Positions 49,012 through 62,418 of a stretch of DNA of 64,000 bases are shown piece after piece. Within the stretch, counting starts at the first letter, position 1, and each line of letters opens with the position of its first letter. The notes under the pieces were generated by a model. The model saw nothing but the letters and a program-made list of their open reading frames with translations, was not told the DNA's origin and did not search any database. The stretch covers positions 930,001 to 994,000 of the forward strand of contig NZ_QODK01000002.1 of the NCBI RefSeq assembly GCF_003324485.1. Reading direction: 5' to 3'. The translations under genes were made by a program, and so were the position numbers. This DNA comes from Cohaesibacter intestini (GTDB taxonomy: Bacteria; Pseudomonadota; Alphaproteobacteria; Rhizobiales; Cohaesibacteraceae).

Positions 49012-49418
49012 ATCGAAGCGACCACCGCTCATTTGTCTGGTTGGGCACGACAATAGGCTTTCTGGTGCCCAGAGCGCGTTTGCGACCACCCATTGCCCGG
49101 CAGGCAAGCGAAGCGCCGCCGAGAGGGGCGCTTGCGGACCTGCAGCTTCTCTTCACGATAAAGTCGCCTGAGCTTCTTGTGGTTCATATGGATGCCTTGC
49201 TTGGACAGCATGAGCGCAATCCTTCTATACCCAAAGCGGCGGCGTTTAGCCGCCACCGCCTTGATTGCTTCTCGAAGATCTGCGTCATCATCCCGAATGC
49301 TTTTGTAGCGCACACTGGACCGATCAACTTGAAGAATGGCACACGCCCGTCGCTGGCTCACACCATGCTCTTTACAGGCATGAGCCACAGCATCTCGCTT
49401 GCCGACAGGCGTCACCAT
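49012..49418 (-). pseudogene. IS3-family transposase OrfB, truncated and frameshifted
   Basis: Starts MVTPVGKRDAVAHACKEHGVSQRRACAILQVDRSSVRY and continues FGYRRIALMLSKQGIHMNHKKLRRLYREEKLQVRKR, the N-terminal helix-turn-helix part of IS407-like OrfB. A frameshift around 49115-49140 moves the continuation (GGRKRALGTRKPIVVPNQTNERWSL) into another frame, and the sequence ends at the point where the DDE integrase core should begin. Not functional. Confidence 0.85.
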
Positions 49419-49733: not shown

Positions 49734-50675
49734 GCGCAGAGCACGAAGTATGGCGTGCGTGATTCGGACGGAAACCTGTCTGATGAGAAACTGCGTGAAA
49801 TTGCGTCGCACCCACAAGTGCGAATGATTGAAATCAAGCTCAGCCAAGGGGCCAAGCCCGGAAAAGGCGGCATTCTGCCTGGCGGCAAGGCCACTGCTGA
49901 AATCGCAAAAGTTCGTGAAATTGCAGAAGGACAGGATTCTCTCTCACCCAACCGGCACACCGACATCAACAGCCTTAGGGAGCTGCTCGACATGATCGAT
50001 TACGTGCGCGAGACAACGGGCTTGCCAACCGGCTTCAAGACAGTCATCGGTGACACCGCTTGGCTCGATGAGTTATTCTCGATAATTGCTGATCGAGGTG
50101 AACGGTCCGCTCCCGACTTTATCACTGTCGATAGCGGCGACGGCGGCACTGGAGCTGCTCCAATGCCGTTGATGGACAATATGGGATTGCCGATCAAGGA
50201 ATCGCTGCCAATGCTGATCGCAGCTTTACACCGATCCGGATTGCGCAACCGGATCAAGGTTGCCGCATCAGGCAAATTGGTTACGCCAACTGAGGTTGCC
50301 TGAGCCTATTGCGCTGGGGCCGATGTTGTCAACTCAGCTCGCGGTTTCATATTTGCGTTGGGCTGTATTCAAGCGCTCAAATGCAACAGGAACACCTGTC
50401 CGACGGGCATCACTACTCACAATCCACGCCTTCAGCGAGGACTGGATCCTGCAGACAAATCGGTTCGCGTTATAAATTACGTCGAGAAGATCCACAAAGG
50501 TGTCGGCGTCATCGCGCATTCGTGTGGCGTTTCGCATGCAAGGGCTCTTGGGCCGGCTCATGTCCGGATGGTCCAGCCGAATGGCGCTTCAAAATCACTT
50601 GAGCAGATTGCGTGGATGCTTGAGGCCGGTCTGCCAGAGGCCCCCAAAAACTTGGAACGAAGTTTGATGGATTGA
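49734..50675 (+). pseudogene. FMN-dependent glutamate synthase family gene, 5'-truncated and with an in-frame stop
   Basis: About 313 codons of the C-terminal FMN-binding glutamate synthase domain. The reading AQSTKYGVRDSDGNLSDEKLREIA begins abruptly at the IS boundary. It continues IEIKLSQGAKPGKGGILPGGK, FITVDSGDGGTGAAPMPLMDN and RIKVAASGKLVTPTEVA, then TGA (50301-50303), then in the same frame AYCAGADVVNSARGF, CNRNTCPTGITTHNP with the Fe-S cysteine region, and SHARALGPAHVRMV. Relatives have tryptophan at the stop, so TGG to TGA is likely. Two lesions make it dead. Confidence 0.85.
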
Positions 50676-50925: not shown

Positions 50926-52797
50926 TCATCGCGCCAACCGTTTTAGGGCTGCTGTGCGATAGGGGGCGTTGCGGGCACCATAGCCGTTATAGCCGCCGCG
51001 TCGTTCGACCACCTCGAAGAAGAAACCATCCCCATGGGGTCGGGAATAAAGCTGCAGGAAAGAGCCGCCATTGTCATCCTGATCATAGAAAATGTTGCGC
51101 GCGCGCAAGGTTTCAATCACTTCTGGCCCCAGCTCGAATTCGGTCGCCAACTCGTCATAATAGGTTTCCGGGATTTCCAGGCTTTCAAAGCCATTGGCTG
51201 CCAGTTTTCGAGCGGTGTCGATGATATTGCCACTCAGGAAGGCAAAATGCTGCATTGATGCACCATAGCTGTCTGACAGGAACCGTCCGGCAAAGGTGCG
51301 GTGGGTGTCGACGCCATTCATCGTCAGGCGGAAACTGCCATCTGCATTTTGCAGGGAGCGGGACTGCACAAGCCCCCCCGCATCTGCCACCCCCACATCG
51401 GGCGCCTTGTTGATATTGAAGATCGAAGTGTAAAACTGGGTCCAGCTGTTGAGCTCTTCCTGTTTCATCACCTGCGCCAAATGATCGATGCGCAACAGAC
51501 CGGTGGGCTGAACATTGCTTTCATCGGTCACCGGAACAAATTCTTTCTCCCAAACCTCGCCCAGTTCGGTCTGTCGATCGAGGAAATGCAATACAGAACC
51601 ACCAACACCGCGCATCGCGGGAATGTCGAGCTCTCCAGAATGACGCTTCTGCATGAACCGTTTGGCCCCGAGTAGTTCCGAACGCACGGTCGCGGCTTCG
51701 GCATCGCCGACCATCAGGCCAATATCGCAGACGCTCGTGCCATGCATCACATAGGCGGAATGGGCATAGCCCTTCGTTTCGGAGTTGATGACGATATTAA
51801 TGCCATTTTGCTGCCAAAGCGTCACTTTCCGGGCGATATGCTTGGCAGTCGGTTTGAAGCCCAATTGTGACAGCATGGCCTCCATCGAAGGGGCGTCTTT
51901 ATCACCAGCCGCAAACTCGATGAACTCGACGCCTTCAATCTTGGCCTTCTGTGGCATGGGAGGCAGATCGACATGACAGCTTGGTTCGGATTTTCGGGCC
52001 GCATCGGCAATGACAATCAGCGCGCGATAGCCATCGAGTGCCAATTGTCGGGTCGAAGCGCGGCTCTTGTTCTCAACCAAGTCAAGACCGTAGCCATCCG
52101 AGTAGCCGGTGGCCGCGACCGCCTTGACGAAATCGAGAATGGGAAAATCCCCTTCTCCCGGCAAGGAGCGGAAGTTGCGAGACTTGTATTGAAGATCCAT
52201 GCTGACAGCAGGTGCATCGGCCAACTGGACATGAAACAGTTTGTCCGCAGGAATGGCACGGATGCTTTCAGACGAGAGGCCTCTGGCCAATGTGTGATAG
52301 CTGTCCAGCACGAGTCCGATCGCCGGATGATTGGCTCGACGCACCACTTCCCAGGCATCGCGATAATCGGAGATATGGCGCCCCCATGCGAGCGCTTCAT
52401 AGCCTACTCGCATGCCGTATTTTTGCGCCAGTTCACCAAGTTCGGTAAAATCATTGGCCATCCGGTCTACGCCACCCAGGCAGTCCGGTGAGGTGGCTGA
52501 ACAGATCAACAAAAGATCAGTGCCCAGTTCCGCCATGGCGTTGAAGCGGCGTTCAATGCGGTCAAAGGCCCGACGGCGTGATGCCTCGGGCAGGCCTTCA
52601 AAATCGAGCGCCGGTTTGAACAGCCGGATGCTCAAACCCTGATCGCGGACCATCTGACCGATTTCGGTTGGGGTGCGGCCCTGCACCGCGAAATCCTGTT
52701 CCGTGATTTCAATGCTGTCAAAGCCAGCCGCAGCAAAGGCAGCAAGCTTGTCTTCCAACGCATCGGCAACGGACAAAGTGGAAATCGAAGTCTTCAT
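50926..52797 (-). CDS. quiC: Two-domain 3-dehydroshikimate dehydratase (QuiC type, HPPD-like C-terminus)
   Basis: 623 residues. Residues 1-280 are an AP-endonuclease-2/sugar isomerase TIM barrel (FDSIEITEQDF, YEALAWGRHISDY, GLVLDSYHTLARG, HVQLADAPAV with metal-site residues). Residues about 290-620 are two glyoxalase-type modules like 4-hydroxyphenylpyruvate dioxygenase (RIDHLAQVMKQEELNSWTQFYTSIF, MQHFAFLSGNI, FFFEVVERRGGYNGYGARN). This is the architecture of bacterial QuiC1 enzymes, which convert 3-dehydroshikimate to protocatechuate. Last gene of the operon. Confidence 0.88.
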   Translation of the reverse strand: MKTSISTLSVADALEDKLAAFAAAGFDSIEITEQDFAVQGRTPTEIGQMVRDQGLSIRLFKPALDFEGLPEASRRRAFDRIERRFNAMAELGTDLLLICSATSPDCLGGVDRMANDFTELGELAQKYGMRVGYEALAWGRHISDYRDAWEVVRRANHPAIGLVLDSYHTLARGLSSESIRAIPADKLFHVQLADAPAVSMDLQYKSRNFRSLPGEGDFPILDFVKAVAATGYSDGYGLDLVENKSRASTRQLALDGYRALIVIADAARKSEPSCHVDLPPMPQKAKIEGVEFIEFAAGDKDAPSMEAMLSQLGFKPTAKHIARKVTLWQQNGINIVINSETKGYAHSAYVMHGTSVCDIGLMVGDAEAATVRSELLGAKRFMQKRHSGELDIPAMRGVGGSVLHFLDRQTELGEVWEKEFVPVTDESNVQPTGLLRIDHLAQVMKQEELNSWTQFYTSIFNINKAPDVGVADAGGLVQSRSLQNADGSFRLTMNGVDTHRTFAGRFLSDSYGASMQHFAFLSGNIIDTARKLAANGFESLEIPETYYDELATEFELGPEVIETLRARNIFYDQDDNGGSFLQLYSRPHGDGFFFEVVERRGGYNGYGARNAPYRTAALKRLAR

Positions 52798-52857: not shown

Positions 52858-54645
52858 TTAGGTGCTGGCGTGGCCACCGCTTCCATCAGGGGAATAGATG
52901 TCGAGAATGTTCCAATGGCCCGAAGTCGGAGTCGGGTTGTTGATCATCGCCACATCAATCACCGTCGGCTTGCCGCTGGCAATCGCCGCTTCAAGCGCCG
53001 GACGGAAGGCGCCAGCCGAAGTGACCCGTACGCCATCACAGCCATAGGCTCTGGCAATCGCCGCATAGTCTGGCGTTTGTTCTTGCGGGTTGTCAGCTGC
53101 GGGGAAGACCGTGCCATGGGTCAGGCCATAGTTCGACTTTTGCAGACCAGCGATAGTGCCATAGGCATTGTTATTCATGATGATCCAGATGACCGGCACA
53201 TTCTCGGCGTTGGCGGTGGCGAGCATCGCCGGATTCTGGCCAAAACCTCCATCGCCGACGAGGCTGATCACCACCCGATCAGGCGCTGCGATCTTGGCCC
53301 CGATGGCAGCTGGCGGGCCAAAGCCCATGGTGGCAAAGCCGCCGGGAATGAGGATCGAGCCCGGTGTGAAAATGTCAAACTGCTGGGCAACGCCATTCTT
53401 GTTCCAGCCCACATCGGAGGTGAGGATGGCATCGCGCGGCATGACGGTCCGCAGATCGGCCAAAATCCGTTCCGGCATCATCGGGAAGGCATCGGACTGC
53501 TGCATCTCGACATTTTGAGCGCTGAAGTTCTGGCGCTCAGTGGCGATCTGCGAGGCCCGGCCATCGGATGGACGTCCGTCGGGCAACATCTCGCGGGCCA
53601 CGCGATTGAGCACGGTGAGCGCCGCCTTCAGGTCAGCCACCGCCCCAATCTCGACCGGATAGTTGCGGCCAATTTCCTGCGGCTCGATGTCAATCTGCAT
53701 CAAGCTGGTCGCGTCTTTGCCGATATTGAAGGTGTAGTCCGGATACCAGCTGGAGCAATCAGCTTCCTTAAAGCGGGTGCCGAGCGCCAGAATCCAGTCG
53801 GCGGCCAAGGTCTGCTGGTTGGTGAATTGCATCCCCCAGAAGCCGGTCATGCCCAGCACCATCGGGTGATCATCGGGCAGCACGCCCTTGCCCATCAAGG
53901 AGAAGGAAACCGGGATCTGCATGTGATCGACAAAGGCGCGCAGCTCGTCATAGGCCTTGGACAGCGCGATGCCGCCGCCGACATGGATGATAGGTTGTTT
54001 GGCGTCTGCCAAGGTTTGAACGATCTGACGCGCTGTCGCCTCATCAATGGTTGGCTTGGCCAAGACCTTGGAGCCGGTCTTGACGCGCTCCCAGCAGGCC
54101 GGGTCAACTTTGGTGGAGAAGAAATCCATCGGCACATTGACCAGAACCGGACCGGGCTGGCCGCTTTCGGCCAAAAGGAAAGCCTTTTCGAGGATTTCGG
54201 GTAGCAGCTCCGGGGTATCGACGCGCCAAGCACGCTTAACGAAGGGGCGATAGATTTCATATTGCGCCGCATCCGCATGGAGGTTGACCTCCTGATGGGG
54301 ATGCTTGCCGTAATAATAAGACGGAATGTCGCCGGCAATCACCACCATCGGGATGCAGTCGAGCGCCGCATTGGCCACCCCGGTCGCCGCATTGGTCAGG
54401 CCGGGGGAGAGATGGCTCAGCACCACCGACGCACGGCCTGTGACACGGGCATAGCCGTCTGCGGCATGAGCGGAAACCTGCTCATGGCGAACATTGACGA
54501 ATTTGATGCTCGAGTCGGCCAAAGCGGACAGGACCGCGATGTTGGTGTGGCCGCAAAGGCCGAAAATATGTTCAATGCCGCGATATTCGAGATAATCCAC
54601 CAACTGGGGTGCATTCTCGATCAGAGTCGTTTGATCCTTTTCCAT
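52858..54645 (-). CDS. Thiamine diphosphate-dependent enzyme, acetolactate synthase-like
   Basis: 595 residues in three domains. The catalytic glutamate is in VRHEQVSAHAADGYARVTG (about residue 55); the middle domain has FSLMGKGVLPDDHP; the ThDP motif is LVGDGGFGQNPAMLATANAENVPVIWIIMNNNAYGTI (GDG to NN). Close members make or cleave C-C bonds next to a carbonyl. The N-terminus (YRGIEHIFGLCGHTNIAVL) is unlike that of sulfoacetaldehyde acetyltransferase. The start overlaps the upstream stop as TGATG, so it is made with the acylating dehydrogenase. Substrate unknown. Confidence 0.88.
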   Translation of the reverse strand: MEKDQTTLIENAPQLVDYLEYRGIEHIFGLCGHTNIAVLSALADSSIKFVNVRHEQVSAHAADGYARVTGRASVVLSHLSPGLTNAATGVANAALDCIPMVVIAGDIPSYYYGKHPHQEVNLHADAAQYEIYRPFVKRAWRVDTPELLPEILEKAFLLAESGQPGPVLVNVPMDFFSTKVDPACWERVKTGSKVLAKPTIDEATARQIVQTLADAKQPIIHVGGGIALSKAYDELRAFVDHMQIPVSFSLMGKGVLPDDHPMVLGMTGFWGMQFTNQQTLAADWILALGTRFKEADCSSWYPDYTFNIGKDATSLMQIDIEPQEIGRNYPVEIGAVADLKAALTVLNRVAREMLPDGRPSDGRASQIATERQNFSAQNVEMQQSDAFPMMPERILADLRTVMPRDAILTSDVGWNKNGVAQQFDIFTPGSILIPGGFATMGFGPPAAIGAKIAAPDRVVISLVGDGGFGQNPAMLATANAENVPVIWIIMNNNAYGTIAGLQKSNYGLTHGTVFPAADNPQEQTPDYAAIARAYGCDGVRVTSAGAFRPALEAAIASGKPTVIDVAMINNPTPTSGHWNILDIYSPDGSGGHAST

Positions 54646-56051
54646 CAGAGCACCTCTGTATTGTAAAATTCACCAAACAGTTCGGCGTCAGACGGGCGGT
54701 CTTCGGCGATTGGACGGGCAACCCAGGTGACATTCATATAATGCTTGAGGGACACATTCTCGTTGGTGATGTTGCCGCCCCAGATGCCGCAGCCGAGCGA
54801 TGAGGTCATCGGCATGCCGTTGGAGAAGGAGCCGGCATTGGCTTTTGATTGTGGCTGACGCACCATGACGCGGGAGACCGGCGCATTGGCGGCGTGACGC
54901 AGAATGCGCTCCTCATCAAAGGAATAGATGCCGCAGGAATGGCCCTTGCCGCCGACTTCATAAATTTCACGCACCATGCGCAGGGTGTCGTCAAAATCCT
55001 TGGCCCGATAGAGCGCCATGGTGACGGACAGCTTTTCACGGCTGAAAGGATGATCCTTGCCGATCTCGTCCTGCTCAACCATCAGGAATTTGCGATCGTC
55101 GGGCAGGTCAAACCCCGCAAAGTCGGCAATGGTTTTGGCCGACACAGCCACGGTTTCGACGCGACGGGAGCCATCGTCTTTCCAGAGCGCCTTGGCAAGC
55201 AGCTGTTTTTCCTCTGGCGAGCAGAGATAGCCGCCTTCGCTGATCAGCGCTGCTTTCATTTGCTCATAGACCGCATCGACGATGATCAGGTTACCATCGG
55301 CCGAACAGCCGGAACCGAAGTCGGACATTTTCGACATCCGCGAATTGGCGGCAGCCTCGGCAATGTCGGCGGTCTCGTCAATCACCATGGTGGAATTGCC
55401 TGCCCCCACGCCATAGGCCGGTTTGCCCGAGCTATAGGCCGCATGGACCATTGGTTTGCCGCCGGTGGCCAGCGTCAGATCGGCCTGACTCATCAAATAA
55501 TTGGTGCCCGGGATGGATGGCTGGGTGACACATTGGAACAGGTCTTCGGGTGCACCAACCAGTTTGCAGGCATGGCGCATGACATTGACCATTTCATTGG
55601 TTGTCGCCTTGGCGCGGGGATGGGGCGAGAAGATTACCGCATCCTTGCATTTGGCCGCATAAAGGCCGGTGACCGGCGGGGTCAATTCCGGGTTGGTGGT
55701 GGGGATGAGAGAGGCGATGACGCCTGCCGGTTTGGCGATCTTGGTCAGGCCTTTTTCTGCGTCTTCCTCGATCACACCAACGGATTTGCCACGCAAGGCA
55801 TCACGCAGAACACCGAGCACCTTGAAGCGCTTGCCTGCGCGTCCAGCGCGGTCGCCAATGCCGCTTTCATCAACGCCCATCTGGGCGATGCGGACAAAGG
55901 TTTTTTCGTTACCGCAATGCCAACCAATGGATTGTGCCAACCGGTCTACTTGTTCTTGATCCCAGTCGGCTATGGCGTCCATGGCAGCACGCGCACGGAT
56001 GATCATTGCGTCGATGGTTTCGATTTCTTCTGGTGAAATGTCACGAGCCAT
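54645..56051 (-). CDS. CoA-acylating aldehyde dehydrogenase (SauS/EutE-like)
   Basis: 468 residues. Family features are GVIASLIPTTNPELTPP, FSPHPRAKATTNEMVNVM, GGKPMVHAAYSSGKPAYGVGAGNS, and the probable catalytic cysteine in DFGSGCSADGNLI. The shape matches short acylating dehydrogenases such as those acting on sulfoacetaldehyde, acetaldehyde or succinate semialdehyde. It would turn an aldehyde made by a neighbouring enzyme into an acyl-CoA with NAD(P). The gap to the TIM-barrel gene is 29 bases. Confidence 0.88.
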   Translation of the reverse strand: MARDISPEEIETIDAMIIRARAAMDAIADWDQEQVDRLAQSIGWHCGNEKTFVRIAQMGVDESGIGDRAGRAGKRFKVLGVLRDALRGKSVGVIEEDAEKGLTKIAKPAGVIASLIPTTNPELTPPVTGLYAAKCKDAVIFSPHPRAKATTNEMVNVMRHACKLVGAPEDLFQCVTQPSIPGTNYLMSQADLTLATGGKPMVHAAYSSGKPAYGVGAGNSTMVIDETADIAEAAANSRMSKMSDFGSGCSADGNLIIVDAVYEQMKAALISEGGYLCSPEEKQLLAKALWKDDGSRRVETVAVSAKTIADFAGFDLPDDRKFLMVEQDEIGKDHPFSREKLSVTMALYRAKDFDDTLRMVREIYEVGGKGHSCGIYSFDEERILRHAANAPVSRVMVRQPQSKANAGSFSNGMPMTSSLGCGIWGGNITNENVSLKHYMNVTWVARPIAEDRPSDAELFGEFYNTEVL

Positions 56052-56080
56052 ATCGGATACTCCTGATTATCGCTGCGGCC

Positions 56081-56917
56081 TCAGGCCATTTGTTTGAACG
56101 ATGCCGGGTCGGCATCAAAGACAGAACGGGCTGCTTCAAGGCAGTTTCGGGCATGCTGCTCGGGGCCAAATTCGGCAATCCGTTTGGCATGGGGCAGCTC
56201 GATGGAAAGGGGCAGATCGGGGAAAAGATAATTGACGGCCCAGAAATCGATTGCCCCTTCGCCAGGATAAAGACGGGCATCGCGGGCTGTGTCGATCATC
56301 GCTTCGCGGGTGAAGGCCAGATCCTCGGCGTCACAGATATGGAGGAAATTGATCCATTCTGGCGGCACCTTTTCGAGTGCCAGAAGGGGGGCCTTGTTGA
56401 AATGCATATAGAGGGTGTCGACCAGCATGCCCTGATTGCGCCGACCGGTCCGTTCGAGAACTTCCATTACCTCTTCGAGCGTTGTCAGCCGAGAAAAGGC
56501 CGGGAATTCCAGATTGACCGTCAGGCCAAAGGGAGCGGCGAGATCGCAGATCTCGGCAAAGGTCTCGACGATGAATTTGCGGTCGTTGCGCACATCGGTC
56601 CATGCAGAGCAAATGACTTGCCCAGCGCCCAGCTCAGCCCCGGCTTCAAAGGCGGGCACAAAATCCTTGGGGTCAAGGCCACGCATGATGCGCATCAGCT
56701 CGATGTCAAAGCATTTCAGATCGGTGTCCGCCAGCGCCTGTTTGGTCTCGCGGATGATCTGCGGGTCAGTCGGGTTAATATCCGGCTCGCCCGCCACACC
56801 CAGATGAAACAGCCGATAGCTGACATAATCATAGCCTGTGCGGGCAGCGATATAGGTCTGTTCGGGTGGGGTCACCCCGGGAACCGTCAAATAGGACAGG
56901 GCATAGGGATGGCTCAT
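56081..56917 (-). CDS. Sugar isomerase/AP-endonuclease-like TIM-barrel protein
   Basis: 278 residues from MSHPYALSYLTVPG. The Xyl-isomerase-like TIM barrel shows FDIELMRIM, QVICSAWTDVRNDRKFIVETFAEICDLAAPFGLTVNLEFPAF, DTLYMHFNKA, FLHICDAEDL and a late PLSIELPH: the E-D-H-E metal set of IolE/IolI-like isomerases, epimerases and dehydratases. The true reaction is unknown. ATGA overlap with the aldolase gene. Confidence 0.85.
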   Translation of the reverse strand: MSHPYALSYLTVPGVTPPEQTYIAARTGYDYVSYRLFHLGVAGEPDINPTDPQIIRETKQALADTDLKCFDIELMRIMRGLDPKDFVPAFEAGAELGAGQVICSAWTDVRNDRKFIVETFAEICDLAAPFGLTVNLEFPAFSRLTTLEEVMEVLERTGRRNQGMLVDTLYMHFNKAPLLALEKVPPEWINFLHICDAEDLAFTREAMIDTARDARLYPGEGAIDFWAVNYLFPDLPLSIELPHAKRIAEFGPEQHARNCLEAARSVFDADPASFKQMA

Positions 56918-57846
56918 GACTGATCCTCCGATGATTGCAGCCAAGGGGGCGGTGGCATATGGGACATGCGACCGGGCAAGGCCCGCTCAAACAGGGCTTC
57001 GGCCTCGGCGACGGGGCCACGCAAGGCCTGCCAATTGATGCCGGTCTTGAGGCCCATTTCCTCGCAGGCATAGGCGACATCTTCGGTCGCAACATTGCCC
57101 GTTGCCATCGGCACGAAGGGACAGCCGCCAAGGCCACCCATGGCGGCGTCAAAGATCCGCACGCCAGCCTGAAGTCCGGCCACCATATTGGCCAGTCCCA
57201 GCCCGCGCGTGTCATGCAGATGCAGCGACAGGGCGGTTTCGTCGCCGATCTCGCCGCGCAACCGCTGGCATAGGTTGAAGACCTGCTGCGGATTGGCCAA
57301 GCCTGCCGTGTCGGCAATGTTGATTTCCTGCACCCCAAGCGCCGCAAAGCGCTGGGCAATGCGGGACACTTGATCCGGGTCGATATGACCTTCAAAGCCG
57401 CAGCCAAGGGCCGACTGGATGCCTGCGCGGACGGCGACGCCTTCGGACAAAGCCTTTTCGATCACCGGCAGGATGCGGGTGATGCCATCCTCGACCGAGC
57501 GGTTGGTGTTTTTCTGCGAATGGGTCTCAGAGGCGGAGACCGAAATGGACAGATGCTTGACCCCAACCGCCAAGGCCCGATCAAGGCCAGAGCCATTGAG
57601 CACCAAGGCGGTATAGACCACGCTCTCCTTTGGCTCGATGCGGTCAAACAACGCATCGGTATCGGCCATTTGCGGCACCCATTTGGGATGAACGAAGGAG
57701 CCGACCTGGATCCGCCGCACGCCAGCAGCCTCAAGATGGCCAAGGAAGTGCAGTTTTTCATCCAAGCTCAAAAGACGCTTTTCATTCTGCAGCCCGTCGC
57801 GCAGAAATTCGTCCTCGATGAGAATGTCACCTGAGAGTTTCATCAT
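56914..57846 (-). CDS. HMG-CoA lyase-like aldolase
   Basis: 310 residues of the DRE-TIM family. LRDGLQNEKRLLSLDEKL with the catalytic R-D pair, GSFVHPKWVPQMAD, SVSASETHSQKNTNRSVED, the metal histidines LHLHDTRGLG and the lyase signature GGLGGCPFVPMATGNVATED with the active cysteine are all seen. Family members split 3-hydroxyacyl-CoA esters into a keto acid and acetyl-CoA or a relative. The start is the ATG in TGATG, overlapping the DctM stop. Confidence 0.88.
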   Translation of the reverse strand: MMKLSGDILIEDEFLRDGLQNEKRLLSLDEKLHFLGHLEAAGVRRIQVGSFVHPKWVPQMADTDALFDRIEPKESVVYTALVLNGSGLDRALAVGVKHLSISVSASETHSQKNTNRSVEDGITRILPVIEKALSEGVAVRAGIQSALGCGFEGHIDPDQVSRIAQRFAALGVQEINIADTAGLANPQQVFNLCQRLRGEIGDETALSLHLHDTRGLGLANMVAGLQAGVRIFDAAMGGLGGCPFVPMATGNVATEDVAYACEEMGLKTGINWQALRGPVAEAEALFERALPGRMSHMPPPPWLQSSEDQS

Positions 57847-59120
57847 CAGAAGCCCATCATCCGAGGAAGCCATGTCACCGTGTCTGGCAGGAAGGTGATG
57901 ATGATGAGCACCAGAACTTCAACCACGAAGAAGGGCATGATGGCCTTGATCAATCGGGCCATGCCGACCCCGGCGACGCTCTCCGCCACAAAGAGGCAGA
58001 GACCAAGTGGTGGAGTAATCAGGCCGATCATCAGGTTGAAGATGACGACAATGCCGAAATGAACCGGATCGACCCCAAGCGACACGGCGATCGGATGCAG
58101 GATCGGCACCAGAACCAGCATTGCGGCGATGCCTTCAAGAAACAGGCCAACAAACAGGAACAGCAGGATGACCGCGATCAGGAAGGTGGTCTTGCTGTCG
58201 ACATTGCCCAGCACCCAGTCGGTGACCATGTTGGGAATGCGATTGTAGGTGAGGAGCCAGTTGGCGGCGGCGACGGCGGCGATGATCACCAGAATGACCG
58301 CGCTGTCGCGCATGGCGCCCGAAAAAATCTGCGGCAGGCGTTTGAAGGAAATCTTGCGATAGACAAACAGACCCAGCACCAATGCATAGCAGACCGCGAA
58401 GCTTGCCGCTTCGGTCGGCGTGACAACGCCGAGCAGGATCGAACCGACAACAAAGACTGGCATCAAGAGTGGCAGGATTCCGCCCATAATGGCGTCCCTG
58501 TTCGAGGTGCCGTGGATGTTTCTCTCACCTGAGACCGTGTCGGCCTTGACCGTCAGCATGACATAGATCGAGAGAAACACCGCCAGCAGCAAGCCGGGGA
58601 CGATACCAGCCAGAAACAGCGCGGGAACGGAGACACCAGAGACGATGAGGGCGTAAATGATGACGGGAATGGATGGAGGAATAATCGGGCCAATTACCGA
58701 GGAGGCTGCCGTGAGCGCAGCCGCAAAGGCGCGGTCATAGCCATGCTTTTCCATTTCGGGAATGAAGACCCGGCCAATGGCCGAGGTGTCGGCAACCGCC
58801 GAGCCGGACAGCCCGGCAAAGATCACCGAAGCCCAGATATTGACATGGGCAAGACCCGCACGAAACCCGCCAACCAGTACATTGGCAAAGGCGATGATGC
58901 GGCGGGTAATGCCGCTTTCGTTCATCAATTCGCCCGCCAGAATAAAGAGCGGGATTGCCAGAAGGGGATAGGAATCGAGCCCCTTGAACATTTCGGTTGC
59001 GACGATGCGCAAGGTATAAGGTGCTTCGCCTGTGGTCATGAACCAAATGAGGGCAACTAGAATGGCGAACGCGATGGGCAGCCCCAGCAACAGGCCGGAT
59101 GTCAGAATGAAAATGGTCAT
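57846..59120 (-). CDS. dctM: TRAP transporter large permease (DctM type)
   Basis: 424 residues, about twelve membrane helices. Seen are PLLAIPLFILAGELMNESGITRRIIAFANVLVG, HVNIWASVIFAGLSGSAVADTSAIG and IPPSIPVIIYALIVSG, all DctM signatures. It carries substrate with Na+ in the tripartite importer made with the two genes upstream. Overlaps dctQ by four bases. Confidence 0.94.
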   Translation of the reverse strand: MTIFILTSGLLLGLPIAFAILVALIWFMTTGEAPYTLRIVATEMFKGLDSYPLLAIPLFILAGELMNESGITRRIIAFANVLVGGFRAGLAHVNIWASVIFAGLSGSAVADTSAIGRVFIPEMEKHGYDRAFAAALTAASSVIGPIIPPSIPVIIYALIVSGVSVPALFLAGIVPGLLLAVFLSIYVMLTVKADTVSGERNIHGTSNRDAIMGGILPLLMPVFVVGSILLGVVTPTEAASFAVCYALVLGLFVYRKISFKRLPQIFSGAMRDSAVILVIIAAVAAANWLLTYNRIPNMVTDWVLGNVDSKTTFLIAVILLFLFVGLFLEGIAAMLVLVPILHPIAVSLGVDPVHFGIVVIFNLMIGLITPPLGLCLFVAESVAGVGMARLIKAIMPFFVVEVLVLIIITFLPDTVTWLPRMMGF

Positions 59121-59644
59121 GCGTCACCCTTTTCCTGAATGCGTTCAATAAAGCGAATGCCAGCGGAAATCGCCAGAATGATGCCGCCGCAGGCAATCGC
59201 GGCCTGCCAAGTTCCAACCCGCCCGAGCCATTCGAGCCAGGCCATGTCGAGGCTCTGGGCCAGCTCCTTGGCCGTACCGATAAGCCCGGAGGCTTCGATC
59301 TGCGGTCGCCGGGATGCGAAGGCAATCCCTGACAGCGTGAGGCCAATGCCGGTTGCAAGCGTGACCAGATCCATCGCGGCGAAAGTCCAGCGCCGCCATT
59401 GATCCGTCAGTATGTCCGTAACGATGGAAAAGCGAATATGTCGATCCTGCAGATATGCCAAGCCAATGCCGAACATGACCCCATAGATGGTCAGATAGAT
59501 CGGCATTTCCTCACCCCAAGCCAGAGAATGGCCAGTGGTGTAACGACGCACGGAATTGACCAAAATGATCGCAAAGACCAGAGCAATGGAAAGGCCTGCG
59601 CCAAAAGCCCAAATCCGCTGGGTAAACCGACTGATTACACGCAT
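59117..59644 (-). CDS. dctQ: TRAP transporter small permease (DctQ type)
   Basis: 175 residues from MRVISRFTQRIWAFGAG with four membrane helices. The DctQ motifs RRYTTGHSLAWGEEMPIYLTIY and RHIRFSIVTDIL are seen. Couples the binding protein to DctM. An upstream start at 59698 would add a hydrophilic tail without support. Confidence 0.88.
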   Translation of the reverse strand: MRVISRFTQRIWAFGAGLSIALVFAIILVNSVRRYTTGHSLAWGEEMPIYLTIYGVMFGIGLAYLQDRHIRFSIVTDILTDQWRRWTFAAMDLVTLATGIGLTLSGIAFASRRPQIEASGLIGTAKELAQSLDMAWLEWLGRVGTWQAAIACGGIILAISAGIRFIERIQEKGDA

Positions 59645-59711
59645 TCGATGTCTCACGATCCTTTGGGTGGGAGAGATGGGTGGCGTTTGGGCGGCCACCC
59701 ATCCTTGGGTC

Positions 59712-60728
59712 TTACTTGGTGGCAGCTTTCACAGCAGCATCAAGCTTTTCAATCCACTCGGCTTCGCCGCCCAGCTCGCCAGCCAGCCATTTTTTGACAG
59801 CTGGTTGCGCCGCATCGCGGAACTGCGCCAATTCTTCGGCGGTTGGCGAATAGACCTGCATGCCTTCGGCTTGCACGGCATTCACACCAACGGCGGTGGA
59901 GAATTGCTGAATGGAACGACCCATATTGCCTGCCACGACGGCTGCTTTCTGCACCACGGCCTGCTCGGCAGGGGAAAGGGACTGGAAGAACTCATCAGAG
60001 ATGAGCAGGAAGTCGGCTGCATAGACGTGACCGTCAAGGGTCATGTATTTTTGCAGTTTATGCAGGCCGTTATTGTAGATCACGCCGACCGGATTTTCCT
60101 GACCGTCAACCACACCTGTTGACAGAGCATTTGGCAATTCGGTCCAGGCAATCGGTGTTGGCTCGCCGCCAAGGCCCTTGACCATCTCAATATAGAGCGG
60201 GATCGGCTGGACACGGAATTTGAGGCCCTTCATATCTGCCGGGGTGCGAATTTCGCGCTCACCATTGGTGAAGTTGCGGAAGCCGGTTTCCCCGTAGGCA
60301 AGCGTACGCAGGCCGGTTTTATCCAGACAATGTGCGGCCAGTTCGCTCCCGAAGGAACCATCCAGCACGTTCCATGCCACTGGTGCAGACGGGAAGGTGT
60401 AAGGAATATCCAGCACGGATGCCGCGCGGCAGATTTTTGACATGGCACCGGAAACCATCACCACCTGGGTGAGATTGTCCTGTGCCTGAGCGACGAGTTC
60501 ATCTTCGTTGCCTAACGCACCGGCTGGGAACAACTCGACTGTCAGACCGGTTTCGCCTTCAACGATGTTTTTGAAGATTTCGGCTGCGGCGCCCTTTTTC
60601 GAGCTTTGCCAATCAGCCGGGTCAACGTGAGCGAAGCGGATGGTCTGGGCCTGTGCACTGGCAGCAACGCCCAAGCCAATGGCCAGGCCTGCAAGGGCTG
60701 ACAGGGTTTTGGTTGTGAAATTACGCAT
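59712..60728 (-). CDS. dctP: TRAP transporter substrate-binding protein (DctP type)
   Basis: 338 residues. The signal peptide MRNFTTKTLSALAGLAIGLG ends at ASAQAQ. The DctP body has RFAHVDPADWQSSKKGAAAEIFKNIVE, GETGFRNFTNGEREIRTPADMKGLKFRVQP with the arginine that binds the ligand carboxylate, and VDGQENPVGVIYNNGL. The ligand is an organic acid; a quinate/shikimate-like acid is inferred from the operon. Confidence 0.92.
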   Translation of the reverse strand: MRNFTTKTLSALAGLAIGLGVAASAQAQTIRFAHVDPADWQSSKKGAAAEIFKNIVEGETGLTVELFPAGALGNEDELVAQAQDNLTQVVMVSGAMSKICRAASVLDIPYTFPSAPVAWNVLDGSFGSELAAHCLDKTGLRTLAYGETGFRNFTNGEREIRTPADMKGLKFRVQPIPLYIEMVKGLGGEPTPIAWTELPNALSTGVVDGQENPVGVIYNNGLHKLQKYMTLDGHVYAADFLLISDEFFQSLSPAEQAVVQKAAVVAGNMGRSIQQFSTAVGVNAVQAEGMQVYSPTAEELAQFRDAAQPAVKKWLAGELGGEAEWIEKLDAAVKAATK

Positions 60729-60771: not shown

Positions 60772-61650
60772 TCAGGGCTTACTGTGTGCGTGCAAAAAGG
60801 CCTCACGCATCACATCTCGATCGGGGCTTTGCTCGGTGAAAAGAGCAAATGCCCTTACAGCCTGCCAGAGCGCCATGCCACCACCACCCATGGTGCGGCA
60901 TCCTTGAGCGCGCGCTGCTGCAAGCAATTCGGTTTCCATTGGAAAATAGATGATATCTGCCACCCAGGCGCCATGCGGAATGGAGGCAACAGGCAAGGGC
61001 GTTCCCGGCAGTTTTGCCATACCCACAGGGGAGGCATTGACCAGTCCGTCACAATTCTGGACTGCCTCTTGTGCATTGGTGACGACCTTGATCCGGCGCG
61101 GGTCATAATGCTTGGAAAGCTCACTGGCCAGATCTTGGGCGCGCGCTTGTTCAGGGTCACAGAGGCGCAACTCGCCCACCCCCTCGCACAGAAGACCATA
61201 AGCAGTCGCCGCGCCAGCCCCGCCAGCGCCAAGCTGCAAGACACGCTCTCGGGCAACGCCGGTCAACTCGGTTCGAAAGGCTTCGGCAAACCCCCAGATG
61301 TCGGTATTGTGGCCATACCGGCGGCCATCGCGCAGAACGACCGTGTTGACGGCACCAACGCGTTCGGCATTTTCTGACAACTCGTCAAGGAAAGGAATGA
61401 TTTCCTGCTTGCACGGATAGGTGATGTTCAAACCATCGAACCCCATCCACTCGGCGGTCTTTAGAAGGTTTTCCAGAGAAAGCTTGCAGTCGAAATCGAG
61501 GTCCAGACGACGATAGACCAGCGGGAAGCCGAGGGCTCGAGCGGCAGCCTCATGCATGGCCGGGGTACGAGATCCTGCGATTCCTGCACCGATAAGCCCA
61601 ATCAGGACGGATTTCGGCTCCGCTTGATGCTGCATTGTGTGATTGTTCAT
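60772..61650 (-). CDS. Shikimate/quinate 5-dehydrogenase-like protein
   Basis: 292 residues of the AroE family. The substrate part has IGLIGAGIAGSRTPAMHEAAARALG (the SxTP serine-threonine site), FDGLNITYPCKQEIIPFLDEL with the catalytic lysine, VGAVNTVVL and YGHNTDIWGFAEAF. The cofactor part has VLQLGAGGAGAATAYGLL, and DIIYFPMETELLAAARAQG and GGGMALWQA close it. The catabolic setting fits a quinate or shikimate dehydrogenase rather than biosynthetic AroE. First gene of the operon. Confidence 0.9.
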   Translation of the reverse strand: MNNHTMQHQAEPKSVLIGLIGAGIAGSRTPAMHEAAARALGFPLVYRRLDLDFDCKLSLENLLKTAEWMGFDGLNITYPCKQEIIPFLDELSENAERVGAVNTVVLRDGRRYGHNTDIWGFAEAFRTELTGVARERVLQLGAGGAGAATAYGLLCEGVGELRLCDPEQARAQDLASELSKHYDPRRIKVVTNAQEAVQNCDGLVNASPVGMAKLPGTPLPVASIPHGAWVADIIYFPMETELLAAARAQGCRTMGGGGMALWQAVRAFALFTEQSPDRDVMREAFLHAHSKP

Positions 61651-61671: not shown

Positions 61672-61718
61672 TTAACTGAACAGTTAAATCTGTCAATTGT
61701 TTTTAACTGGACAGTCCA
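61672..61718. promoter_or_regulatory. Twin TetR operators in the divergent control region
   Basis: TTAACTGAACAGTTAA (61672-61687, arms TTAACTG/CAGTTAA) and TTAACTGGACAGTCCA (61703-61718) are two copies of one dyad with starts 31 bases apart, three helical turns. They lie between the shikimate dehydrogenase start (61650) and the TetR start (61753), so one regulator could control both directions. Confidence 0.75.
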
Positions 61719-61752: not shown

Positions 61753-62418
61753 ATGACCAACCAGAAGAGCGCAGCTGCGCCCGAGCGAAAGAAGAGATGG
61801 AAGCAGGATCCGGAGGCTGTGCAAGCCAGCATTCTGGAGGCGGCTGCGACGGAGTTTGCCGAGCACGGTTTGACTGGCGCACGCGTCGATGACATTGCCG
61901 ATCGTTCTCGCTTTACCAAGCGGATGATCTATTATTATTTCAATGACAAAGAGACCCTCTATCTGCGTGTTCTGGAAGAAGCCTATCGCAAGGTACGCGG
62001 TGAGGAAGCGGCGCTGGATCTATCATCCCTGAATGCCAAACAGGCCCTGCGCAAACTGGTCGAATTCACCTTCGATCATCATCGCAAGAATGAGCCTTTC
62101 ATCCGACTGGTGATGATTGAGAATATCAACAACGGCCGTCATCTGGAAACGTCGACCCTGATTGCCAAGGTCAATGAAAGCGCTGTAGATCGGATCAATG
62201 AGATCTGCGCTCTTGGCAAAGAGGACGGAACCATCCGCGCCGACCTGTCACCGCTGGAGTTGCACTGGATGATCAGCGCGATGTCCTTTTTCAATGTCTC
62301 CAACCAGCCCAGCTTCGCCCGCGTCTTTGGCGGCACCCTGTTTTTGCCCGACGGTCAGGAACGGTTGCGTGACATGGTCGTTGAGGCTGTGCTTGCAATT
62401 GCCGAGCCTAAGCTTTGA
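61753..62418 (+). CDS. TetR-family transcriptional regulator
   Basis: 221 residues. The N-terminal helix-turn-helix is ILEAAATEFAEHGLTGARVDDIADRSRFTKRMIYYYFNDKETLYLRVLEEAY. The C-terminal ligand domain (about 80-220) with FIRLVMIENINNGRHLETS resembles the RutR-like branch. It is divergent from the ten-gene catabolic operon with shared operators, so it likely represses that operon until an intermediate binds. Confidence 0.93.
   Translation: MTNQKSAAAPERKKRWKQDPEAVQASILEAAATEFAEHGLTGARVDDIADRSRFTKRMIYYYFNDKETLYLRVLEEAYRKVRGEEAALDLSSLNAKQALRKLVEFTFDHHRKNEPFIRLVMIENINNGRHLETSTLIAKVNESAVDRINEICALGKEDGTIRADLSPLELHWMISAMSFFNVSNQPSFARVFGGTLFLPDGQERLRDMVVEAVLAIAEPKL

Follow-up and report, generated by a model that had tools for sequence, protein, structure and literature searches.

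Gene organization of the operon

We analyzed a 64,000-bp stretch of the genome of the marine bacterium Cohaesibacter intestini (contig NZ_QODK01000002.1, positions 930,001 to 994,000), hereafter called the window. It harbors a putative quinate degradation operon of nine genes, which runs on the - strand from position 61650 to 50926 with short or negative intergenic gaps. Its genes are given below in operon order, followed by the elements upstream of them.

60772 to 61650, - strand: AroE-type quinate/shikimate dehydrogenase, first gene of the operon (PF08501 and SDH_C; PRK12549, 385 bits, cut-off 235)
59712 to 60728, - strand: DctP, binding protein of a tripartite ATP-independent periplasmic (TRAP) transporter (PF03480, 234.6 bits)
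59117 to 59698, - strand: DctQ, TRAP small permease (PF04290)
57846 to 59120, - strand: DctM, TRAP large permease (PF06808)
56914 to 57873, - strand: HMG-CoA-lyase-like (HMGL-like) acyl-CoA lyase (PRK05692, 309 bits, cut-off 246)
56081 to 56944, - strand: xylose-isomerase-like TIM barrel of the IolI/IolE/QuiC type, 287 aa (PF01261, AP_endonuc_2)
54645 to 56051, - strand: SauS-like CoA-acylating aldehyde dehydrogenase, 468 aa (NF047625, 461 bits, cut-off 600)
52858 to 54645, - strand: thiamine diphosphate (ThDP) enzyme, 595 aa (three TPP domains)
50926 to 52797, - strand: QuiC-like fusion of a dehydroshikimate-dehydratase-type TIM domain and an HPPD-like domain (NF042435, 530 bits, cut-off 1200)
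61753 to 62418, + strand: divergent TetR-family regulator (PF00440, PF17938)
61672 to 61715, no strand assigned: two probable operator copies, predicted between TetR and AroE (TTAACTGAACAGTTAA at 61672-61687 and TTAACTGGACAGT at 61703-61715)

A preliminary description of this DNA covered the four core genes, which encode the lyase, the TIM barrel, the SauS-like dehydrogenase and the ThDP enzyme. It left out five operon genes (AroE, DctP, DctQ, DctM and QuiC) as well as the divergent TetR gene. The four enzyme types that it named are indeed present: an ORF check of the window revealed full-length, intact reading frames on the - strand, the families were assigned by profile matches, and the catalytic residues are kept. 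The lyase end at 57846 given there corresponds to a downstream in-frame ATG. If the ATG at 56917 is used, the TIM-barrel gene overlaps the lyase gene by 4 bp. The host genome contains another shikimate dehydrogenase gene outside the operon (C1:868352).

Family and active site of the ThDP enzyme

The top NCBIfam matches of the ThDP enzyme were acetolactate synthase models (385 bits), which together with its AHAS-like fold would be in line with a carboligase of the acetolactate synthase type. We rejected this assignment as very improbable. The score is below the TIGR00118 cut-off of 538, and in the tree the enzyme formed a clade of its own (100/100), separate from AHAS (100/97), Gcl, PoxB and Oxc. 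Thus, a placement inside the acetolactate synthases, which had been named beforehand as the outcome speaking against a ring-opening function, was not found. Moreover, the protein does not have the Gly of AHAS at the position of His33 and contains an insertion that AHAS lacks, a separate AHAS is encoded elsewhere in the genome (G000:C2:892383), and no IlvH gene adjoins the ThDP gene. Metabolism of sulfoacetaldehyde or sulfopyruvate by a SauS/Xsc-like sulfonate pathway was dismissed as extremely improbable. While the acylating dehydrogenase matched SauS best in NCBIfam and the ThDP enzyme had Xsc among its matches, both scores fell short of their cut-offs (461 of 600 bits for SauS; 290 of 676 bits for Xsc, TIGR03457), no sulfonate-specific gene resides nearby, and AroE, AroD and citryl-CoA lyase at this and related loci would be left unexplained.

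His33 and Glu55 of the ThDP enzyme are invariant in 30/30 orthologs. The protein contains a GHTN motif, whose His33 is equivalent to the His of the GHGN motif of IolD and to His28 of cyclohexane-1,2-dione hydrolase (CDH). Both this residue and an insertion following a Gln-Gln/Glu motif are common to the window enzyme and four IolDs, and both are missing from IlvI, IlvB, Gcl, PoxB, Oxc and AlsS in the alignment. The enzyme is not an IolD proper, however. It scored 233 bits with the IolD model TIGR04377 (cut-off 715), the host possesses a separate true IolD gene (803 bits), and the neighbors of the ThDP gene are AroE, TRAP, HMGL, SauS and QuiC genes, not an iol context. Of the IolD-like module proposed earlier, an identity of the ThDP enzyme as IolD was thus not supported. 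By analogy, we infer that the enzyme works like an IolD-type dione hydrolase.

CDH belongs to the same ThDP superfamily. Its variant H28A/N484A forms C-C bonds instead, H28 being one of two CDH residues whose change permits this reaction (PMC12247030). Of the CDH residues compared, only H28 is kept, whereas N484, H31 and H76 are replaced by Ile498, Ile36 and Leu79 in the window enzyme, and CDH does not possess the IolD-type insertion.

Aliiruegeria lutimaris contains two ThDP paralogs on different contigs, 70% and 84% identical to the window protein (L098 and L038). More distant relatives (33-36%) were detected on haloarchaeal plasmids (L127, L135) and in Aminobacter (L125) and Antarctobacter (L126), next to cyclitol-type genes (scyllo-inosose dehydrogenase, TIM barrels, Gfo/Idh, CoA-acylating MMSDH) or dehydroquinate dehydratase; they probably belong to further ring-opening pathways. 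A 1057-aa ORF of Nonomuraea was considered as an ALDH-ThDP fusion and discarded, as the ALDH sits in a separate reading frame.

TIM barrel, acylating dehydrogenase and lyase

Between 63 and 65 of 65 orthologs retain the metal ligands E146, D176, H202 and E249 of the TIM barrel. Its structural model (pLDDT 91.7) matched IolI (1i60, TM 0.77), QuiC1 (5hmq, 0.74) and IolE (9zmv, 0.70), enzymes that isomerize or dehydrate cyclic ketones. We propose that the protein is a 3-dehydroquinate dehydratase or ketol isomerase yielding a 3,4-dione. In the SauS-like enzyme, the catalytic Cys249 is present in 67/67 orthologs. The best PDB matches were acetylating ALDH/AdhE, and the characteristics of the CoA-acylating superfamily were found; its proposed role is the conversion of an aldehyde to an acyl-CoA.

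Residues R25, D26, D188, H218, H220, C251 and E264 of the HMGL-like lyase are invariant in 34/34 orthologs, and intact catalytic residues together with a PRK05692 score above the cut-off place it within the HMG-CoA lyase family. Its genomic context argues for a citryl-CoA-like substrate rather than HMG-CoA, and we propose homocitryl-CoA or an analogue as the compound that it splits, with acetyl-CoA and a 2-oxo acid as products. Citryl-CoA lyase, which has a citrate synthase fold, and HMG-CoA lyase both cut 3-hydroxy-3-substituted acyl-CoAs to acetyl-CoA and an oxo acid, and one or the other accompanies the ThDP gene. The substrate proposed here, homocitryl-CoA or a hydroxy analogue, differs from citryl-CoA and HMG-CoA. 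The lyase had been suggested to take the place of the class II aldolase known from inositol breakdown; it is better explained as an enzyme splitting a citryl-CoA-like thioester.

Comparison of 92 loci

Orthologs of the ThDP enzyme, approximately 68-86% identical to it (about 51% at two actinobacterial loci), were collected from genome contigs, whole genomes and plasmids, and the gene content of the resulting 92 loci was determined by six-frame tblastn; some counts refer to 87 long loci. The loci span Alpha-, Beta- and Gammaproteobacteria, Desulfobulbaceae, UASB270 and Actinomycetota. SauS was found at 87 of the 92 loci. The distance between SauS and ThDP genes had a median of 39 bp, with both genes on the same strand at 82/82 loci, an association that exceeds chance.

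The lyase turned out to be exchangeable. Thirty-three loci contained only HMGL, 47 only citryl-CoA lyase and one locus both. The citryl-CoA lyases of the relatives are unrelated to HMGL (NF004864, 430 and 461 bits, cut-off 261). On the ThDP tree, the swap requires at least four changes, two of which are forced by well-supported branches. For five loci lacking a lyase of their own, a lyase gene was located in another part of the genome: a citryl-CoA lyase (80-85%) in the case of L028, L107 and L110, an HMGL (68%) in Salipiger, and an HMGL (52%) beside AroE and a Gfo/Idh gene in UASB270. A second swap concerns the formation of the thioester. Four loci, those of a Thiobacillus MAG, Azoarcus KH32C, Streptomyces and Nonomuraea, possess a lyase and no SauS; a CaiB-type CoA transferase is encoded at all four, accompanied at three by an ordinary aldehyde dehydrogenase. 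The one-step conversion of an aldehyde to an acyl-CoA would thus be replaced by oxidation to the acid and subsequent acylation.

On the basis of both swaps, it is well supported that the product of the ThDP enzyme is an aldehyde, which is turned into a CoA thioester cleaved by the lyase. As this thioester must be cleavable by either lyase, a citryl/HMG-type 3-hydroxy-acyl-CoA is the simplest reading.

AroE was detected at 50 and AroQ or AroD at 17 of the 87 long loci, far above the roughly estimated 0.5% expected per gene (20 kb of a 4-Mb genome). On a plasmid of Azoarcus KH32C, a single operon groups the genes for the ThDP enzyme and citryl-CoA lyase with those for a CoA transferase, a shikimate dehydrogenase and a type I dehydroquinate dehydratase (AroD). 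Transporters recur among the ThDP loci as well.

QuiC-like protein and the aromatic route

The last gene of the operon brings the ordinary aromatic route into play, in which AroE and QuiC would produce protocatechuate and the ThDP, SauS, HMGL and TIM-barrel genes would serve an unrelated substrate from within the same operon. The QuiC-like protein lends some support to it, since its N-terminal domain retains most dehydratase residues (E134, D165, H168 and Q191, with E239 replaced by Asp). Moreover, intradiol or LigB-type dioxygenases are present in several other cluster-bearing genomes. In the host, whose genome is 99.4% complete, the route looks closed: no intradiol dioxygenase was found in this genome, nor a catechol 2,3-dioxygenase above the cut-off, and the sole LigB-family match is a YgiD-type 4,5-DOPA dioxygenase (DODA), so that no protocatechuate- or catechol-cleaving dioxygenase was recognized. 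Sixteen of 50 cluster-bearing genomes likewise lack both PF00775 and a LigB match above 150 bits. QuiC of the Roseobacter group has lost the N-terminal metal ligands E134, D165, H168 and E239 while the cluster persists, which indicates that the clusters can do without a functional dehydroshikimate dehydratase domain. Finally, AroE, AroQ or AroD lie beside ThDP and lyase genes without a nearby QuiC at four loci (L025, L056, L057 and L062). On these grounds we regard the aromatic route as unlikely.

The H/H/E triad of the C-terminal HPPD-like domain is kept in 74, 71 and 75 of 77 rows, even beside a dead dehydratase half, and in Azoarcus KH32C this half is a separate gene (L122:5943-6767). It appears as an orphan enzyme of hydroaromatic metabolism. 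The related C-terminal domain of QsuB has no known activity (PMC7442255).

Proposed pathway

The data suggest that the operon probably takes up and degrades quinate, and also shikimate, without making an aromatic ring, as judged from gene content and from analogy to characterized enzymes. Quinate would enter through the TRAP transporter and be oxidized at C3 by the AroE-type enzyme, for which 3-dehydroquinate or 3-dehydroshikimate is the proposed product; the latter, formed from shikimate, would be hydrated to 3-dehydroquinate by AroD/AroQ. By eliminating the hydroxyl group at C5, which is in beta position to the ketone, in the way IolE acts on inosose, the TIM barrel would generate 1-hydroxy-3,4-dioxocyclohexane-1-carboxylate. 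Such a dehydration would make a second dehydrogenase, an enzyme that the window operon does not contain, unnecessary for the formation of the 3,4-dione. The ThDP enzyme would then add water and cleave the C3-C4 bond of the dione, on the model of IolD and CDH, and release an open-chain aldehyde-acid. Conversion of the aldehyde to homocitryl-CoA by the SauS-like enzyme and cleavage by the HMGL-like lyase would finally give acetyl-CoA and 2-oxoglutarate. C1 of quinate suits both lyases because it is a tertiary alcohol bearing a carboxyl group and flanked by CH2, as citryl-CoA-type cleavage needs. Carbon and redox are balanced in the proposed route.

As enzyme classes, the oxidation of quinate and the last two steps are supported by the comparison of loci. 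Dehydration and ring cleavage, including the ThDP reaction, its regiochemistry and the exact products, are modeled on the chemistry of IolE, IolD, CDH and citryl-CoA lyase. The idea of the preliminary description, that a ThDP enzyme could conceivably open a quinate-type ring without aromatization and that the route ends in acyl-CoA and products of the lyase, thus gained support from both enzyme swaps, the recurrent AroE and AroQ/AroD genes and the missing protocatechuate ring-cleavage enzyme of the host.

Some relatives may follow a variant. At 12 loci, an HpaI-type aldolase gene directly follows the ThDP gene, always on the same strand (12/12) and at a median distance of 16 bp, and Gfo/Idh dehydrogenases occur at 49 of the 87 long loci, at some of them without AroE. 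In relatives with both, the dione would perhaps arise via C4 oxidation with the C5 hydroxyl group kept, ending in 4-hydroxy-2-oxoglutarate and then pyruvate and glyoxylate. If this applied in general, the same core would act on a dione formed by C4 oxidation, or the ThDP enzyme would directly cleave the acyloin 3-dehydroquinate; the lyase would release acetyl-CoA and a 4-hydroxy-2-oxo acid, and the aldolase pyruvate and glyoxylate or glyoxal. For the window operon, which contains neither Gfo/Idh nor an HpaI-type aldolase and whose only dehydrogenase besides SauS is AroE, we consider this explanation rather unlikely. Between two Gfo/Idh dehydrogenases, several clusters encode a 218-aa family (e.g., L081:8611-9267, - strand) without a Pfam or NCBIfam match.

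Several points weigh against quinate degradation by the dehydration route. The sister relation of IolD to the ThDP clade reached a support of only 71/37. The comparison of structure and active site suggested earlier confirmed His33 and the insertion as in IolD, but the fold search placed the ThDP model (pLDDT 77.5) equally near to AHAS, Gcl and HACL (TM ~0.8). The loci were selected by ThDP similarity and stem mostly from related Alphaproteobacteria, so that their counts are not independent. Given the HpaI-type aldolases and the Gfo/Idh genes without AroE, the substrate, or the hydroxylation of the product, may vary. Moreover, since the QuiC N-domain of the window keeps most dehydratase residues, some protocatechuate may still be formed.

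Putative operators and flanking sequences

The gap of about 100 bp between TetR and AroE holds two copies of TTAACTGNNCAGT, one of them a perfect palindrome. The only three matches of TTAACTGNNCAGT in the window all lie between these two genes, compared with 0.01 expected. A search for the motif at the loci of the other genomes gave no occurrence. Downstream of the operon, two fragments were judged by eye only to resemble an IS3-type transposase (49029-49418, - strand) and a glutamate synthase FMN domain (49755-50303, + strand).

Relation to known pathways and significance

Quinate and shikimate are abundant plant acids. All routes for their degradation known to us, bacterial and fungal, first lead through aromatization to protocatechuate, and oxygen is required for the usual cleavage of its ring. 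In the open-licence literature searched, we found no non-aromatic opening of the quinate ring. The operon shares a quinate/shikimate dehydrogenase and a QuiC-like protein with the QuiC1/QsuB protocatechuate route but differs from it by the additional ThDP, acyl-CoA and lyase genes and by a host lacking a protocatechuate-cleaving enzyme. The myo-inositol pathway (IolG, IolE, IolD, IolB, IolC, IolJ, IolA) resembles it in the sequence of ring dehydrogenase, TIM-barrel dehydratase, ThDP dione hydrolase, for which IolD and the window enzyme share the GH(G/T)N motif and the insertion, and acyl-CoA-forming dehydrogenase. In contrast to that pathway, the operon contains neither a kinase nor a class II aldolase, its substrate would be a carboxylate with AroE as the dehydrogenase, and a lyase would cut the chain at the acyl-CoA stage; the genome encodes its true IolD at another site.

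Tentatively, we suggest that these clusters represent an undescribed, oxygen-independent route that converts quinate and shikimate to acetyl-CoA and 2-oxoglutarate, with a 3,4-dione and homocitryl-CoA as intermediates, uses interchangeable non-homologous acyl-CoA-forming enzymes and lyases and is spread over Proteobacteria, Desulfobulbaceae, UASB270 and Actinomycetota. If this is true, the ThDP-based route would need no oxygen and could explain how Desulfobulbaceae, UASB270 and other bacteria that lack protocatechuate dioxygenases use hydroaromatic compounds. It would extend the ring-opening logic of inositol breakdown to a new class of substrates and would assign functions to clusters of many marine bacteria whose genes currently carry the annotations acetolactate synthase, SauS, HMG-CoA lyase or citryl-CoA lyase.

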